NCBI GenBank assembly: GCA_020186115.1
Contig: WSYJ01000005.1
Span: forward strand, 1 to 64,000
DNA length: 64,000 nucleotides
Direction: 5' to 3'
DNA from: Histomonas meleagridis
Lineage: Eukaryota; Parabasalia; Tritrichomonadida; Dientamoebidae
Part shown: positions 16,371-53,835 of the stretch, one piece after another
Layout: each line of letters opens with the position of its first letter
How positions within the stretch are numbered: position 1 is the first letter of the stretch
Notes under the pieces: model-generated
Told to the model about the DNA's origin: nothing
Database searches by the model: none
What the model saw: only the letters and a program-made list of their open reading frames with translations
Program-made: the position numbers and the translations under genes

Positions 16371-16500
16371 TCCATATTCATTCAAAAATTATTTGCCAAT
16401 GTCAATTTGTTTCAAAAATTAAAATAGTCGGTTAGAATCGTTTCTTTCTCAATTTAGACATGACAAATCGCGCGCTTTTATAAGCCGTTAGAATAACATA

Positions 16501-16509
16501 CCAAAAAGT
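16501..16509 (+). promoter_or_regulatory. CCAAAAAGT motif before start codon
   Basis: CCAAAAAGT lies 11 bp before the ATG at 16521, with a GCCGTTA Myb-like core at 16484-16490. Similar CCAAAAAGTG/CACTTTTTGG motifs occur at 5017, 11109, 19584, 42339 and 57998, in gene-proximal positions. A core-promoter role is inferred from recurrence only. Confidence 0.4.
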
Positions 16510-16520
16510 CAACCAGCAAA

Positions 16521-19199
16521 ATGGATTATGGGAAATACGTAGAAGAACAACTAAGTAAATATGGAAGTCATCCAAAAACAGGACTTCCAAATGAAAGAAT
16601 AAAAGCTAATCGACAAAATTTTGGCAACAATTGCATGAAAATAACAACATCAAAAAATATTTTTCGCTTAATTTTAAGCCAATTCAAGAACACAACTGTG
16701 ATTGGCCTTCTTTGCTCAGCCTTTGTTGCATACTATTCGATTATTAATAATATCAACCCTAAATTTAACTTTGAATATTACGTCGAGCCATTGATTATTT
16801 TAATTTCTCTTATGATAACAGCCTTTATATCAATATACTTTGAGCATAAAAACAGAAATCTTAAAAAAGAAACATTTAAATATTTATCACAAACTTTCAA
16901 AGTTCACCGAAACAATCACATCACAAATGTCAATGGTGAAGATCTTGTTTGTGGAGACATCATTGAGTTAAGTTCTGGCAACCGTGCACCAGCAGGTCTT
17001 TTAATCTTAAATGTCAATTCACCAACTGTTGAATACGAAACTCTTGATGAAAACTCACAGCTTACAACCTCCACCAACCGAGAAGGGGAAATCATTGCAG
17101 GTTCTTCTATTTTGAAAGGAAATCTTCAATGTCTTGTTATCAAAGTTTCCTCAATGAAAGACTTCAAAACAATTTCAGTTCGTTCCACTCCATCTGGGAA
17201 ACGTCTTATTTCACAACTTAATAACTTTAGCAAAATATCATCCATTTTAATCATCGTTTTATGTTTTTTGATTTTCCTTTTAAACGTTCAAAATCCGAAA
17301 GACACAAAAACTCTTTTAATCATATTTCGTCTTTCTCTTGCATTAGCCATTGTTTCTATTCCAGAGAATCTTTCATTATATTTACGTAATTCACAAATTA
17401 TTGCGTCACATGAAATGTCAAAGAACAATACAATAGTTATTGACACGCATTCCATTGATACAATTGGAAATGTATCTGTTCTTTGTTATGATTTATTTTC
17501 AACATTAGCATCTGACATATTAACAGTTAATCAATTTTCAACCATTTCTAATGAACTTGTTGATTTATTTCATGTTGAAAACAAAGGATATCAACTAAAT
17601 GGGAGAATTACACAAAATGATGAAGAATGTACTGATTTAAATTCACGTAAAGCAATTGAAAAATTAATAATATCTTTAATGCTTATCGATCAACCAGGAA
17701 TTATATACAATGAAAATAATTTTGTAATTACTTCATCTAATAAACGAATTCCTTCGTTACAAATATTCGCAAATAAATTAATGCATAAAGTTTTCGATAA
17801 AGATCCAAACATTCAACTTCTAAAAGCTTGGACATCAATAAAACGTAACAAAGAAACCGAAGTAATTGTAAACAATGAAAACAAAATTGTATTTAAATGT
17901 GATAATAATATATATAAAATCGGAAATTATCAGAAAGTTTTAAACAAATGTAAATATTATGTTGATGATGAAACTGGTGAAGAAAAACTAATTTCGAATG
18001 AACTCAGAAAGAAACTTGAATATTTATGCTCAAACATTTGGGCAAAACAATTTATACCAAAAGGAATTTCTTACAAAGAGAATAATAATGGAAATCATGT
18101 ATGGATTTCAGGTATTGCAATATCGAACTTACTTCGAAAGGACGCACTTTCATCAATCGAACTATGTAAGAGTTCCGACATTAAAACAATTTTAATATCG
18201 AATGAAGACGAAGAGATAACTTCAATGTACTCCGAAATGTTACGTTTTCCAAAGGATGATATTATTAATGATAAACAATGGTCTAAAATGAGCAATGAAG
18301 AAAAGAAAAATATTATCAAACAAAAAAATGTTTTTTGCGGATTTTCTTCAGCCGAAAAAATCGAACTTATAAATCATCTTAAAGAAAACAATGAATTCGT
18401 TGGATTCGTTTCAACAAATGTTGATGATATCTCTGCATTAAGATCTTCTGATGTAGGAATTACTTTAAGTAATAGTAACGAATGCATTAGAGGCGTCTCT
18501 TCAATGATACTGAAGAATAACTCGTTGAATTCGATATCAAAGGCTGCAATGTTCTCAAGATCAACAAAATTAACTTCAATCGCTTGTTTAAGATTTATTT
18601 TATCGTGTGGAATCGCACAAATCGTTAATTACTTGATTTATGGAATTATTGGTATTCAATGTAAGTTCTCATCTTCTGTTATACTCGTTTTAAGTTTATT
18701 AACTCTTCCATTTACTCAATGTATCGCTTCAAATGTTTACATGACAAAGAAGAAAACAAAGAACTTTTTGGCAAAAAGTGTCATACGGTTTGTCGTTTCG
18801 GGTATCGTTGGCGGCGTATCGGCTTTTGGGGCAGCCCTGTATTATTATTCATTTGATTCTAACGGTCTCCAAATTCCATATCAATCAATTTTATTCGGCA
18901 AAAGAAATTCAATGAAATCATTGTTTATAGATGACGTCCCAGCAACATTATCTGCTGTAACTTTGTTAGGAGTTTATATTATGAATGCAATTGATGCTGT
19001 TTCGGGTAGTGGATATAAAAGTATTAAATTGGCAGTGTTCATCGTCATCAGCATTTCATTGTTGGCTTGTTTCACATGTGTTAGACAAATAGGAAATGTA
19101 CTTCATTTAGCTTGGCTAGAACCAATGCAATGGTTAACATCATTTGTATTTACTATACCCCTTTTCGTAGTGAATTTCATTTTAAGAATAATATTTTGA
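16521..19199 (+). CDS. P-type ATPase (Ca2+-type) pseudoenzyme
   Basis: An intact 892-residue frame with the domain order of a PMCA/SERCA-type pump: membrane helices ~58-110 and ~237-290, actuator domain ~125-235, P/N region ~300-660, and C-terminal helices ~675-890. Most catalytic motifs are altered. Actuator TGES is TTST (~182-185). M4 PEGLP is PENLS (~281-285). DKTGTLT is DLFSTLA (the Asp, ~324, remains). N-domain KGAPE is KIGNY (~466). Hinge GDGVND is STNVDD (~631-636). A canonical pump cycle (phosphorylation, dephosphorylation by the Glu of TGES, Mg2+ binding by the hinge) should not run. The frame shows no decay over 2.7 kb, so a non-catalytic role is inferred. It is divergent from the RIC1-like gene. 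Confidence 0.8.
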   Translation: MDYGKYVEEQLSKYGSHPKTGLPNERIKANRQNFGNNCMKITTSKNIFRLILSQFKNTTVIGLLCSAFVAYYSIINNINPKFNFEYYVEPLIILISLMITAFISIYFEHKNRNLKKETFKYLSQTFKVHRNNHITNVNGEDLVCGDIIELSSGNRAPAGLLILNVNSPTVEYETLDENSQLTTSTNREGEIIAGSSILKGNLQCLVIKVSSMKDFKTISVRSTPSGKRLISQLNNFSKISSILIIVLCFLIFLLNVQNPKDTKTLLIIFRLSLALAIVSIPENLSLYLRNSQIIASHEMSKNNTIVIDTHSIDTIGNVSVLCYDLFSTLASDILTVNQFSTISNELVDLFHVENKGYQLNGRITQNDEECTDLNSRKAIEKLIISLMLIDQPGIIYNENNFVITSSNKRIPSLQIFANKLMHKVFDKDPNIQLLKAWTSIKRNKETEVIVNNENKIVFKCDNNIYKIGNYQKVLNKCKYYVDDETGEEKLISNELRKKLEYLCSNIWAKQFIPKGISYKENNNGNHVWISGIAISNLLRKDALSSIELCKSSDIKTILISNEDEEITSMYSEMLRFPKDDIINDKQWSKMSNEEKKNIIKQKNVFCGFSSAEKIELINHLKENNEFVGFVSTNVDDISALRSSDVGITLSNSNECIRGVSSMILKNNSLNSISKAAMFSRSTKLTSIACLRFILSCGIAQIVNYLIYGIIGIQCKFSSSVILVLSLLTLPFTQCIASNVYMTKKKTKNFLAKSVIRFVVSGIVGGVSAFGAALYYYSFDSNGLQIPYQSILFGKRNSMKSLFIDDVPATLSAVTLLGVYIMNAIDAVSGSGYKSIKLAVFIVISISLLACFTCVRQIGNVLHLAWLEPMQWLTSFVFTIPLFVVNFILRIIF

Positions 19200-19672
19200 A
19201 TAACAAAATATAAATGTTGTTTATTGGCGCACATGAACATGGACAAAATAAATAAGTTTTTGACTTCGTTCTTTTTCATTGAAATTGAGATTTAAGAAGT
19301 TTCTTTATTTCAAAAATATTCACTTTCTTTTTATTTAATTCATTTTTTTCATTAATGCATTTTGACAAAAAATTCATTTTGAGATTAATCGTTTTGCATT
19401 CCCAAAAAAATTATTTAAACAAAAAATTATTTATATAAATACTTAAATCTATGTTGAAAATATTGATTGGTGATATAAGCAACAAATAATATATGCCACA
19501 TGCATTGCAGAAAAACCCATTGAAAATAATGATTAGTGAACGTTAATCGATATGACTTTTTGAACTTTTTAGCAGATTAAAATCCACTTTTTGATATAAT
19601 TTAGCAGTTATATTTTGACAAATTTGTTCCAACAAAAGTGTGTTGACTGGCATTTTTATAAAACACACACAA
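19200..19672. other. Intergenic
   Basis: AT-rich. A CCACTTTTTG motif sits at 19584-19593 and TTTAGCAG occurs twice (near 19568 and 19601), upstream of the DUF3447 gene. Nothing else is supported. Confidence 0.5.
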
Positions 19673-20803
19673 ATGGAAAAAGCAAATCAAAAAACTCAAA
19701 ACGAATGGGAAATACTTATGTCAATCAAGCAAATAATTTTTGGTTTGAACTCAAAAAATTATAATCAATCAATAAATTCACTGATTCAAAAATTTGATTA
19801 TATTCATCCGATTACCTTCAATATAGTTATAAGTCAAATGATATATTTTAAACTTCTTACGAGATTGAATGATATAGATCTATATTTTAAATTACTAAAT
19901 ACAATTGAAACATTTGAAGAGAACAATAAAATTTCTTCAAAAGTACTTAATATATTTGCGAATTATCTTGCCAAAAAGCGCACATCTGAATCAAGTTACA
20001 TTTTACATAAGATGAACGAATATAATTATTTAAAGTCATTTTTCGACAGACCAGACTTCGAATATTCCAAGTTTTATTATAATGTCAATATGAGTAATTA
20101 TAAAGAAACACTAAAGGATGATTCTGAACTTCATAAACAATTAATTAAAGAAGGAGAAAATCCAAATGAAATCTCGAAAATGATTAGAAATGATGAAGTT
20201 GAAAAACTTCAAGAAATAACATCACAAACGAATTTTGATTTTAATCAAACAATTGAGCCATCACTTTATGAACGAAGTACATTTATAAATCAAAAAAATG
20301 TTACATTAGTTGATTTTGCTGCATTTTTTGGATCAGTTAAATGTTTTAAGTATTTAATTATGAATGGCGCAAATTTAATTGATTCAGGTAAATTTGCGAT
20401 TGCAGGTGGAAATTTAGAGATATTTCATTTATGTGCACAAAATTCTTCGAAATTTGAAAACACATATGAAATAGCAATTGAATTTCATCGAAATGATATC
20501 TTTAAATATTTTTATGAAAACAAATTAGAAAAAATTCAAGATTTGGAACAATTGGGAAAGAAATGTATAACATATCATAATTATGAAATTCTTTCATTTC
20601 TAATTGATGAAGGAATGAAAATTAACGAAGATTTCATCAGTGAATCAGCAAAGATTGGAAATCTATTTCTTGTTAAATACTTCCTTAAAGATCATCAATT
20701 ACCAAAAGACATTTTATTTTCTACATCAGAATCAGAAAATACTGAACTTGTTAAATATGTTTTAGAACAAAAAGAAATTGATATTAATACTAAAGATATT
20801 TAA
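19673..20803 (+). CDS. DUF3447/ankyrin protein, trichomonad type
   Basis: A 376-residue frame from the ATG at 19673 (MEKANQKT). The N-terminal ~200 residues are helical and variable. Residues ~210-330 match the DUF3447 pattern found in the large trichomonad ankyrin family (TLVDFAAFFGSVKCFKYL, IAGGNLEIFHLC, IEFHRNDIFKY). The C-terminus is the beginning of an ankyrin stretch ending EIDINTKDI, directly followed by TAA (20801-20803). Family members normally continue with many ankyrin repeats, and nine more cores follow at 170-bp spacing with a final stop at 22315. Either this protein is truncated here or the true product extends by an unrecognised RNA-level joining. Ankyrin stacks mediate protein binding; the partner is unknown. 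Confidence 0.75.
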   Translation: MEKANQKTQNEWEILMSIKQIIFGLNSKNYNQSINSLIQKFDYIHPITFNIVISQMIYFKLLTRLNDIDLYFKLLNTIETFEENNKISSKVLNIFANYLAKKRTSESSYILHKMNEYNYLKSFFDRPDFEYSKFYYNVNMSNYKETLKDDSELHKQLIKEGENPNEISKMIRNDEVEKLQEITSQTNFDFNQTIEPSLYERSTFINQKNVTLVDFAAFFGSVKCFKYLIMNGANLIDSGKFAIAGGNLEIFHLCAQNSSKFENTYEIAIEFHRNDIFKYFYENKLEKIQDLEQLGKKCITYHNYEILSFLIDEGMKINEDFISESAKIGNLFLVKYFLKDHQLPKDILFSTSESENTELVKYVLEQKEIDINTKDI

Positions 20804-22315
20804 ATGTTTTATTTATAGTTTATTTTATTAATTTTATGTTTCAAAATAAAATTTGGAAATTATTCACGTTATTTAGAACAATACTCTTTTATGCATGTGA
20901 AAATGGTCATACAGAAACAGTTAAAATACTTCTTGATCAAAAAAAAATTGATGTAAATGCTAAAGATATTTATTTGTTTTATTTAAAATTAATTTTAATA
21001 ATTTAATGTTTCAAAATAATATTTGGAAATTATTTGAATTATTTTGGACAGTACTTATGCATGCATCTGAAAATGGTCATACAGAAATAGTTAAATTACT
21101 TCTTGAACAAAAAGGAATTGACGTTACTGCTAAAAATATTTATTTGTTATATTTAAAATTTGTTTTATTTATTTATTATTTCAAAATTGTATTTGGAAAT
21201 TATTTATATTATTTAAAACAGCGTTTATGTATGGATATGAAAATGGTCATTCAGGAGTTGTTAAGTTACTTCTTGAACAAGAAGGAATTGACATTAATGC
21301 CAAAGATATTTATGTGTTTTATTTATGATTTATTTTAATAATTTTGGATTTCAAAATAATGTTTGGGATTTATTTGAAATATTTTATATAGCACTTGTAA
21401 AAGCATCTGAAAAAAATTACATAGAAATAGTTAAATTACTTCTTGCACAAAAAGGAATTGATGTTAATGCTAAAGATGTTTATTTGTTTTATATAAATTT
21501 TATTTTAATAATTTCTTGTATCAAAATAATATTTGGAAATTATTTCAAGGATTTTATACAGCACTTATAAAAGCATCTGAAAAAGGTCATATAGAAATAG
21601 TTAAGTTACTTCTTGAACAAAAAGGAATTAATGTTAATGCTAAAAGTATTTATTTGTTTTAATTGAAATTTATTTTAATAATTTTATATTTCAAAATAAT
21701 ATTTGGAAATTATTAAAATTATTTTTCACAGCACTTATTAAAGGATCTGAATATGGTCATACAGAAATAGTTAAAATGCTTCTTGAACAAAAAGGTATTG
21801 ATGTTAATGTTAAAGACATTTCCTTGTTTTACTTAAAATTTATAATATAAATTTCGTATTTCAAAATAAAATTTGGAAATTATTAAAATTATTCTTTACA
21901 GCACTTATATTAGCATCTTCAAAAGGCTATTTAGAAATCGTCAAATTACTTCTTGAGAAAGACGGAATTGACATTAATGCTAAGAATATATATTTGCTTT
22001 ATTTGCAATTTGTTTTCATGATTTTATGTTTCAAAATAACATTTGGAAATTATTTAAATTATTTTTTACATCACTTATGATTGCAGTTGCAAACAATCAA
22101 ACAAAAATAACTACATTACTTCTTGGTAAAGATGATATTGATATTAATGCTAAGAATATATGTTTGCTTTATTTGGAATTTATTTTAACAATTTCAAATT
22201 TCAAAATGAAATTTGGGAATCATTTAAATTATTTAAAACAGCACTAATGTTAGCAACTTCAAAAGGTAATACTCAAATAGTTAAATTATTGCATGATAGA
22301 AATAATACTACTTAA
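20804..22315 (+). repeat. 170-bp tandem array, nine ankyrin cores
   Basis: Nine ankyrin cores start at 20878, 21048, 21218, 21388, 21558, 21728, 21898, 22068 and 22238, exactly 170 bp apart. The first eight are 93 nt (31 codons, pattern TALMxASENGHTEIVKLLL then EQKGIDVNAKDI); the ninth ends with TAA at 22313-22315. None has a stop or an indel. They are separated by 77-nt linkers that share TTTCAAAATAAT and TTTGGAAATTATTT blocks. Because 170 is not a multiple of three, each core is in a different frame from the last. Linkers read in the frame of the following core are stop-free in all nine cases; read in the preceding frame at least five contain stops. No GTATGT donor or ACTAAC-type acceptor is present. 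Confidence 0.85.
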
Positions 22316-22648
22316 AATGCTTACTAAAAAGAAGGTATTTGATATGAATATTTTTTACCTTTTTAATTTTGGATAAGTCCAAATTTTATTCATTTTTGTT
22401 TATCATTACAAAGTTCACTAATATTTTATCAAAATATGAATACACTGATGATCTACTATTATTTTTATTACTTGCCATATAAGAAAAATAATTAGAAATC
22501 CAATTGTTTTCCGATTCGGAAAACGTATTGTTGTTTTATGAATTTGACCGTTTAAAAATTCAAAAGATCCGATAGCCATTTTTCTATTATTTATTTTTTC
22601 GATAGCATAGAAAAAATTGAACGATAGATTTATAAATTTCCTTTCAGG
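22316..22648. other. Intergenic
   Basis: No gene seen. An AACGATAG Myb-like motif lies at 22620-22627 and CTTTCAG directly precedes the next ATG. Confidence 0.4.
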
Positions 22649-23333
22649 ATGAAAATATGGCTTGTTACAGGCACATCAACAGGTATTGGTCATGAACTTG
22701 TTAAACTTCTTCTTGCCCGCGGTGATAAGGTTGTTGCAACCTCTCGAACACCGGAAAAATTAATCTCATCCATTGGTTCAGTTTCAGAAAACTTCCTCCC
22801 AATTTTTCTTGACCTCAATTCTGAAGAGAACATCAGATCAGTTGTTTCTAAAGCTATTGAACATTTTGGACATATTGATGTTCTTGTTAATAAGTGGTAC
22901 TATTTTCAATGTTTCATACATTGCAGCATTTCATTCCTTCTATGGGTTGGGCACGTACTCTGCCGATAAAATGGCACTTCGAGGAATGACAATTGCAATG
23001 CGCGATGAGTTCAAACATTTCGGTGTTCGTACATGCTGCGTTGCCCCAGGGCCATTTAAGACCGCATTCTTTGATCAGTGTGGCCAAGCCGATATAATTA
23101 TTGATGATTACGAAGAACTTCGTAAGACCCTTCCGCCACGCGAAAAGAGAAAGTGGGAGGACAATGTGAAAGGCGCGCAGCTTATCATCGATGCAAATGA
23201 ATTAGAAGAAATTCCAGAAACGTTATTCTTGGGAAAAGTGGCAATTGATATTGTGCGAAACGATTTAAAGAAAATTAATGATGAAATGGATAAATATGAA
23301 GAAATATGCTCACATTGTGGAGCAGAGTTATGA
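22649..23333 (+). pseudogene. Short-chain dehydrogenase with internal deletion
   Basis: The 5' part (22649-~22891) encodes the Rossmann start with TGTSTGIG and ends at IDVLVN. The 3' part (~22893-23333) begins at SGTIFNVSYIAAF and contains the catalytic Ser, the YSADK (YxxxK) pair and a C-terminus ending EEICSHCGAEL. In this SDR family IDVLVN is followed by NAG and about 45 residues before GTIFNVS; here these are missing and the halves are in different frames. The deletion joins AATAA to AGTGG directly. No splice signals are present. The result is a non-functional NAD(P)-dependent oxidoreductase, or a collapsed assembly. Confidence 0.8.
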
Positions 23334-53141: not shown

Positions 53142-53835
53142 TAAACATTTTCAGTTTTCATAAATTTTTCCCGCGCAACGAAGTAATGAAAGCAGCGACA
53201 CGACCATAAAGCAGAAGAAACAGTTCTTCGCCATTACGAAGCACCGACTCGTGAACACTTTCATTTCCGTAAATTTTTCTGCGCGATGACGTAGTGCAAG
53301 TAGTGACACCTTAAGAAGGCAGTAGAAGCGAATATTCGTCATTATGCAAGAGCAGATTGAGCAGCACCGACTCGTGAACACTTTCATTTCCGTAAATTTT
53401 TCCGCGTGATGATGATAATGAAAGTCATGACACTACAAGAAGGCAGTAGAAGCGAATATTCGTCATTATGCAGCAGCAGATTGATCAGCACCGACTCGTG
53501 AACACTTTCATTTCCGTAAATTTTTCCGCGTGATGATGATAATGAAAGTCATGACACTACAAGAAGGCAGTAGAAGCGAATATTCGTCATTATGCAAGAG
53601 CAGATTGAGCAGCACCGACTCGTGAACACTTTCATTTCCGTAAATTTTTCCGCGTGATGATGATAATGAAAGTCATGACACTACAAGAAGGCAGTAGAAG
53701 CGAATATTCGTCATTATGCAAGAGCAGATTGATCAGCACCGACTCGTGAACACTTTCATTTCCGTAAATTTTTCCGCGTGATGACGTACACCGTTGCGAA
53801 CATTTTCTTTTACGTAAATTTTTCACGTGACATTT
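53031..53835 (+). repeat. ~124-bp tandem array derived from the gene's 3' end
   Basis: CACCGACTCGTGAACACTTTC recurs starting at about 53242, 53365, 53489, 53613 and 53737 (spacing 123, 124, 124, 124), with partial copies at each end. Each unit also has TTTCCGTAAATTTTTCCGCG, GATGATGATAATGAAAGTC, AAGGCAGTAGAAGCG and ATTCGTCATTATGCA. The coding end of the preceding gene (53031-53160) aligns with the unit: GATGATGATAATGAAAGT, ATTCTTCGTCATCGGATAAC, TCCGACTAGTAAACATTTTC, CATAAATTTTTCCCGCG. The array is thus an amplified copy of that gene's last codons plus 3' flank, now without an open frame. Confidence 0.85.

Follow-up and report, generated by a model that had tools for sequence, protein, structure and literature searches.

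How can a run of ankyrin repeats remain coding when the frame shifts from every repeat to the next? The question is raised by a locus of Histomonas meleagridis within a stretch of 64,000 nucleotides (nt) from contig WSYJ01000005.1 (assembly GCA_020186115.1, positions 1 to 64,000 of the forward strand; hereafter the window), where an open reading frame (ORF) with Pfam matches to DUF3447 (34.8 bits) and Ank_2 (32.9 bits) is followed by nine ankyrin cores, every one out of frame with the preceding core. A preliminary description of the window had reported nine units 170 bp apart with no indel, and this agrees with Tandem Repeats Finder (20765-22288: period 170, 9.0 copies, 0% indels) and with the unit layout, which is free of indels across the nine 170-bp units when aligned from 20790. 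It was also right that each of the nine linkers can be read without a stop in the frame of the core after it, since nine ORFs begin at the junctions (20794, 20964, 21134, 21298, 21474, 21644, 21814, 21984 and 22154), that at least five linkers contain a stop in the frame of the core before them (the first, second, fourth, sixth and seventh, judging from the ORF ends), that the upstream ORF ends at such a junction (a C-terminus of ...INTKD before linker 1, then GAT ATT TAA at 20795-20803), and that the last core closes with TAA. The linker itself, given as 77 nt, is redefined here as the 80 nt between NAKD and TAL. The description left two readings, in which either a piece of 2 mod 3 nt, such as a 68-nt intron, is removed from the RNA per 34-residue repeat, or a non-coding unit was recently amplified.

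Anatomy of the Linker

Core matches in 22 sources (the window and the loci L009-L028 and L003) delimited 245 linkers, 193 of them exactly 80 nt long, which form the sample for the statistics below; the DNA taken for analysis comprised 20 loci of 6-10 kb, twenty of ~3.3-3.5 kb and six short stretches. Linker variability peaks at three spots of 3 nt (offsets 17-19, 37-39 and 77-79), and GGA is near-fixed at offsets 57-59. Read as codons, these spots divide the linker into four A/T-rich inserts of 17 nt with one codon after each (NAKD-[17]-x-[17]-x-[17]-G-[17]-x-TAL). Together, these codons spell x-x-G-x between KD and TAL, i.e., the ankyrin beta-hairpin D-x-x-G-x-T, and skipping the inserts leaves 170 - 4x17 = 102 nt, or 34 codons per repeat. 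The proposal that 68 nt (2 mod 3) are passed over per 34-residue repeat thus stands, except that these are four 17-nt pieces and not a single 68-nt intron. The insert consensus is position-specific (e1 ATTTATTTGTTTTATTT, e2 ATTTATTTTAATAATTT, e3 ATTTCAAAATAATATTT, e4 AATTATTTAAATTATTT), and all four consensus inserts have common ends, A.TT...ATTT, with A(T/A)TT at the start and ATTT at the finish. The e1, e2 and e4 consensus sequences match at 13-14 of 17 places (chance P ~0.02 to 0.005) and e3 at 9-10 only, which suggests that e1, e2 and e4 may be of common origin.

Several features identify the triplets as codons. No stop occurs at offsets 17, 37, 57 and 77 (0/772 triplets in the 193 units); one base upstream of the four triplets, stops are found in 156, 56, 12 and 118 of the 193 units, respectively. 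Column shuffles lead one to expect 8.6, 8.6, 1.9 and 21.9 stops in the four triplets, and within-locus shuffles that count each distinct linker once 3.1, 4.9, 1.5 and 16.9 (P 0.012, 0.002, 0.049 and 0 of 3000). The third triplet encodes Gly in 178 of the 193 units, GAA making up 11 of the 15 exceptions. When readings were scored with a profile built on insert-free ankyrin contexts (n = 68) of other proteins, a spacing of 20 with the last triplet at 77 ranked first among the equal-spacing readings (n = 237), with 9.78 bits per unit against 5.69 for the next. With four free offsets, 17/37/57/77 came only 28th of 1,088,430 readings, and the best three shown place T-3 at offset 44, a triplet with little variation. 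The G+C content of the triplets (0.296) is coding-like and close to that of the core (0.275), compared with 0.046 for the inserts and 0.047 for third codon positions (173 units without L011). Under the skipping reading, six cores with five hairpins reach 169.1 (Ank), 180.3 (Ank_2) and 170.9 bits (Ank_4) in Pfam, the Ank_2 score falling to 148.5 bits for the six cores without hairpins. The alignments shown run gap-free through the hairpins with Ankyrin-1 (PDB ankyrins), and the repeat has the hallmarks of the ankyrin family: 33-34 residues, a D-x-x-G-x-T-A/P-L hairpin and a helix pair. In all likelihood, then, the linker carries codons every 20 nt.

Each of the first three triplets spans three bases and is flanked by inserts, so triplet variation postdates the placement of the inserts, and the absence of stops would therefore hardly be left over from an insert-free ancestor. 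Recent non-coding amplification, the second reading of the preliminary description, is not supported in its stated form, as the triplets varied after the inserts were in place and are nevertheless stop-free and ankyrin-fitting.

A Genome-Wide Family

The published H. meleagridis genome measures 43 Mb with 28% G+C and 573 annotated introns (PMC8529796); the assembly scanned here has 43,276,120 bases in 121 contigs. A search of it for related arrays, along the lines that the preliminary description had suggested, showed the present array to be one of many. A 511-base piece of the array gave 212 matches, those listed being mostly 78-86% identical. Allowing two mismatches at most, the 37-mer e3-GGA-e4 was counted 2,721 times and never in the reversed control; AAAGAT-e1 was counted 3,222 times (reversed control: 3). 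The genome holds about 3,000 such units, and hence would contain on the order of 10,000 inserts. Outside the arrays, 200,693 bases contained 22 insert-like 17-mers compared with 20 in one shuffle, and the e3-GGA-e4 motif found no match in viral-contig or genome-contig collections. The locus L030 (C40:1072415-1075705, around 1073915) is part of an uninterrupted ankyrin open frame of 984 codons and offers an insert-free control gene. Among the best 150 of 8766 candidates retrieved with a generic ankyrin query, the one search made for it, no insert-free copy of the present repeat type was seen, and gap-free matches through at least two repeats reached only 44-58% identity.

Related units occur in proteins from ENA contigs. 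P0014, P0038, P0042-P0045, P0047 and P0057 contain (NAK)D/N/S-x-[19 residues, e.g., VYFNNLIFQNNIWNFFKLF]-x-TAL or a pattern near to it; 19 residues correspond to 57 nt, or 17+3+17+3+17, which implies the same insert pieces. Back-translation puts GG at the glycine place wherever W occurs in the 19-residue stretch, two P0043 units being without W. The best-scoring match of P0014 in the H. meleagridis genome is only 51% identical, so these proteins come from another organism. The contigs are mostly ~0.5-2.4 kb long and retain the inserts. Seven other-species proteins (P0001, P0002, P0003, P0008, P0009, P0012 and P0017) end with I, one residue past KD, KG, QD or RN; in the window, insert 20798-20814 carries the in-frame TAA that closes the DUF3447 ORF at KDI, the sole stop at that offset among the 193 linkers. 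In the open-licence PMC literature searched, no description was found, for Histomonas or any other parabasalid, of inserts of 17 nt or exons the size of a codon.

Reading Genes through the Inserts

A parser using insert profiles that exclude the locus being read was applied to the 26 runs of at least four cores. It penalises stops and may dodge some by declining to skip, so its results are supporting evidence rather than proof, and for the same reason controls that skip 16 or 18 nt are weak. Seventeen of the 26 runs are free of internal stops with 9-51 inserts skipped (e.g., L024 51, L028 48, L018+ 47, L003 46, L017 39). Fourteen of these extend at least 75 nt beyond the start of the last detected core; the other three end 12 nt into it (L025), 12 nt before it (L020) or 14 nt before it (L003, near the end of the fetched stretch). 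In the window array, the parser skipped 33 of 36 inserts, and the last three inserts of the diverged linker 7 were read by eye.

Outside L011, 173 of 205 linkers measure 80 nt, and 21 differ in length yet keep the skipping frame (60, 63, 77, 83, 86 and 100 nt) through loss or gain of an insert, of an insert plus a codon, or of codons; seven of the ten 63-nt linkers come from L022, an array itself with stops. The 17 stop-free runs contain no frame-breaking linker, their lengths other than 80 nt being 60, 63, 77, 83 and 86. Six extra stretches, picked for 153-bp or otherwise in-frame spacing, all hold units without e1 that mostly retain e1's codon, with one stop in two of the six; such units are in frame without skipping because 3x17 = 51. 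L011 (C72:127500-137400) is an array of 40 cores whose linkers show many one-base changes in homopolymers and whose cores show some frame breaks. These probably reflect errors of long reads in a repeat beyond the reach of short-read polishing, or else decay; L011 is left out where stated, and its 20 units with 80-nt linkers remain among the 193. L018- and L019+ (C1, ~826-857 kb) are near-identical decayed arrays that face opposite ways, and suggest that C1 contains an inverted duplication.

Substitution Patterns

Single-base codon differences were counted in 147 pairs of nearest units, setting aside codons with multiple differences (77 triplet, 147 core, 1 Gly). The variable triplets show 135 replacing and two silent changes and no stop, against 104, 22 and 10.8 expected. 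The ratio of replacing to silent change (omega) is 0.56 for structural core codons, with no stop where 7.4 were expected. Over all codon classes, one stop was counted against ~29 expected, although recombination of old variants may break the independence of these changes. An apparently higher conservation of inserts than of silent sites (0.043 vs. 0.107) was dropped, as the paired comparison gives similar rates.

How the Inserts May Be Passed Over

The codon signature makes it probable that the inserts are passed over, by an excision machinery or by the ribosome, and that the intervening codons have been diversified as contacts of a binding repertoire. As to the agent, we tentatively prefer precise removal from the RNA, the array forming the 3' part of one ankyrin gene, a version whose chances we put slightly below even. 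The gene would hold 36 inserts, four per 34-codon repeat and one ahead of each hairpin codon x-x-G-x, and protein would be made only if all 36 were passed over exactly. A splicing-like but non-canonical reaction on the RNA would cut out each 17-nt piece and leave 3-nt exons. It would have to recognise or measure the piece, and recognition would rest on the ends A.TT...ATTT and on length. The product would likely serve a binding repertoire with the variable codons as ligand contacts; variable hairpin codons are the usual ligand-contact positions in ankyrin repeats. Excision at the RNA level is preferred because introns of 15-18 nt exist, the spliceosomal introns of Stentor coeruleus measuring 15-16 nt (PMC9505925), those of Bigelowiella natans 18 nt and those of Trichomonas vaginalis 23 nt (PMC12316389).

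The inserts resemble these tiny introns in being very short, A/U-rich and near-uniform in length. Unlike them, they lack GU...AG and a visible branch site, leave 3-nt exons, come four per 34 codons and by the dozen per gene, and are found in one repeat type only (with 200,693 bases beyond the arrays tested). The spliceosome as we know it is an unlikely agent. The insert consensus departs from the U2-type parabasalid intron (5' GTAYGT, fused ACTAAC...AG), and neither the T. vaginalis-type motif ACTAACACACAG (3 matches, reversed control 2) nor GTATGT...ACTAAC...AG (12 matches, reversed control 111) is enriched in the genome, in agreement with the earlier statement that no GTATGT or ACTAAC signal fits. 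Rfam gave a single sub-threshold match over 19000-23000; a candidate U6 small nuclear RNA lies at C36:377228-377335 (43.7 bits, just below the Rfam cut-off of 44).

Other known systems offer partial parallels. Programmed bypassing (T4 gene 60 and the mitochondrial byps of Magnusiomyces capitatus; PMC8211752) likewise involves non-coding pieces within an ORF that need to be skipped, whereas the Histomonas inserts are nuclear, 17 nt long and present in thousands of copies, with no matched take-off and landing codons and no fold in the one unit tested. With the DUF3447-ankyrin proteins of parabasalids, the array gene shares the DUF3447 match of its upstream ORF and the ankyrin sequence of its skipping reading, but the uninterrupted member on C40 carries no inserts. 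Ciliate internal eliminated sequences are also short A/T-rich pieces between coding bases; the Histomonas inserts, in contrast, are found in DNA assembled from the cultured organism and have no constant TA at both ends because the flanking codons vary. Introner-like elements similarly place many related insert sequences in coding regions, but the inserts described here are 17 nt long, lack splice sites and occupy fixed positions in one repeat type, having apparently spread together with the repeat unit.

A number of observations weigh against excision from a functional transcript. Internal stops (1-10) occur in 7 of the 26 runs (L010+, L011, L013, L015, L026 and two runs of L022), and those of L018- and L019+ end early, after two inserts. 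With a stricter insert threshold and parsing from the upstream ATG, an upstream ORF was found for 12 of the 26 runs and none for 14; six of the 12 ATG-anchored genes are stop-free (L009, L017, L018+, L023, L027 and the window) and six have 1-14 stops. Whole-core omega is 1.01 in nearest-unit pairs, because the core has variable positions of its own, and substitutions in the inserts (0.033-0.035 per site) roughly keep pace with those at silent sites (0.023 at four-fold and 0.037-0.040 at two-fold sites), so that no recognition motif is apparent beyond length and shared ends. The Gly triplet shows no purifying signal in nearest pairs (11 replacing and two silent changes; 7.7 and 4.7 expected), and private variants, a small set of 46, look neutral (structural codons 26 replacing to nine silent, expected 25 to 8). 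Tree parsimony gave omega values of 0.89 for the core, 1.85 for the triplets and 1.17 for Gly; its ancestral states hold artefact stops, and it was superseded by the nearest-pair counts. The inserts contain no GT-AG ends and no branch site, and one unit tested showed no fold above chance (z 0.29). To our knowledge, dozens of exact excisions with 3-nt exons have no precedent.

Two further explanations are serious rivals, though we regard each as rather unlikely. The inserts might stay in the mRNA, with the ribosome hopping over each 17-nt piece. This would fit a length so strict while the sequence drifts, the lack of anything resembling a splice site, and, if the short other-species ENA contigs are transcripts, the presence of inserts in RNA. 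It would also have to work without a match between take-off and landing sites, as the codon before the inserts varies and insert ends are mostly TTT, and without a fold in the unit tested. We know of no hop that occurs dozens of times 3 nt apart. The hops known so far occur singly, or several to a genome in the mitochondria of Magnusiomyces, a case treated in PMC8211752. Alternatively, an ancestor passed over the inserts, and the family then expanded into arrays, once selected, that are now silent or decaying. The neutral-looking private variants, the lack of a purifying signal at the Gly triplet in nearest pairs and the nine of 26 runs with internal stops or early ends would fit such decay, as would the frame-breaking lengths (64, 65, 75, 78, 81 and 82 nt) of 11 among the 205 linkers outside L011. 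These linkers sit in L010 (a two-core fragment), L013, L015, L018-, L019+ and L022-, of which L013 and L015 have stops, L018- and L019+ end early, and the L010 fragment and L022- are outside the parse. Against present silence stand the 17 runs with neither internal stops nor frame-breaking linkers and, with the caveat on independence given above, the deficit of stops in nearest-unit pairs.

The remaining alternatives fare worse. If the inserts were translated, units without e1 (51 nt = 17 codons) would give a 51-residue repeat with an aromatic loop and four-insert units would be broken; e1-less units do occur in H. meleagridis, and raw ORFs of the other species span several 51-codon units (P0042, P0043, P0045, P0047), although ORF-based records favour such units. 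We consider this improbable, as hairpin codons recur every 20 nt, with two of the four off the raw frame in e1-less units and yet mostly Gly-keeping and stop-avoiding, four-insert units dominate the loci read (193 of 245 linkers), and, in the following core's frame, substitutions in the inserts are not concentrated at third positions (124, 84 and 103 at positions 1, 2 and 3); in the preceding frame there is a mild third-position excess (84, 103, 124). A single ordinary intron of 68-80 nt per repeat would have a total length that suits a 34-residue repeat, but codon-like triplets would lie inside it, no in-phase GT...AG was found when worked by hand and T. vaginalis-type motifs are not enriched, making it very improbable. 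Checked by hand, one 68-nt intron bounded by GT...AG or AT...AC has the wrong phase. A -1 frameshift per unit was likewise rejected, because the codon signature sits in linker triplets and not in the raw frame. Least credible of all is an accidental match to the ankyrin code in the variable triplets of a degenerate 20-nt minisatellite; the four-fold 20-nt module and the agreement among e1, e2 and e4 would be explained, but hardly the lack of stops, the Gly at the right module and the first rank among the 237 equal-spacing readings.

Layout of the Locus

The feature coordinates are collected in Table 1; GGG encodes two of the nine hairpin glycines. Immediately upstream of the array gene lies an ORF of 900 codons resembling a P-type (E1-E2) ATPase (16497-19199). 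Downstream, a short-chain dehydrogenase gene runs in two frames (22628-23333); the Pfam adh_short match is confined to positions 1-83 and 127-189, which leaves out a piece from the middle. A tandem repeat richer in G+C (period 124, 4.4 copies, 95% matches) is found at 53240-53784.

Table 1. Features of the ankyrin array gene in the window, with the codons that separate the inserts.
Feature	Positions	Strand	Hairpin codons	Inserts or basis
5' gene part: 375 unbroken codons, DUF3447 and first ankyrin repeats	19673..20797	+		ORF, Pfam
Linker 1	20798..20877	+	ATA TAT GGA AGA (IYGR)	20798-20814, 20818-20834, 20838-20854, 20858-20874
Ankyrin core 1, TILFYACENGHTETVKILLDQKKIDVNAKD	20878..20967	+		
Linker 2	20968..21047	+	KNGW	20968-20984, 20988-21004, 21008-21024, 21028-21044
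Ankyrin core 2	21048..21137	+		
Linker 3	21138..21217	+	KIGK	21138-21154, 21158-21174, 21178-21194, 21198-21214
Ankyrin core 3	21218..21307	+		
Linker 4	21308..21387	+	MWGY (G: GGG)	21308-21324, 21328-21344, 21348-21364, 21368-21384
Ankyrin core 4	21388..21477	+		
Linker 5	21478..21557	+	KLGY	21478-21494, 21498-21514, 21518-21534, 21538-21554
Ankyrin core 5	21558..21647	+		
Linker 6	21648..21727	+	EYGF	21648-21664, 21668-21684, 21688-21704, 21708-21724
Ankyrin core 6	21728..21817	+		
Linker 7, diverged	21818..21897	+	KRGF	21818-21834, 21838-21854, 21858-21874, 21878-21894
Ankyrin core 7	21898..21987	+		
Linker 8	21988..22067	+	AYGF	21988-22004, 22008-22024, 22028-22044, 22048-22064
Ankyrin core 8	22068..22157	+		
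Linker 9	22158..22237	+	GQGK (G: GGG)	22158-22174, 22178-22194, 22198-22214, 22218-22234
Ankyrin core 9, last, own C-terminus	22238..22312	+		
Stop codon TAA	22313..22315	+		In frame after skipping all 36 inserts; 676 codons counted from 19673

Implications

If the inserts are passed over, they would represent a new class of intervening sequence, at the lower limit of intron size known so far, lacking splice signals and with exons of one codon, the shortest possible in frame. Their number, ~10,000, would dwarf the 573 introns annotated for the genome (PMC8529796). Splicing or decoding in H. meleagridis would then work in a manner not described in the open-licence PMC literature searched, and a large ankyrin repertoire of this poultry parasite would have been hidden from gene prediction.

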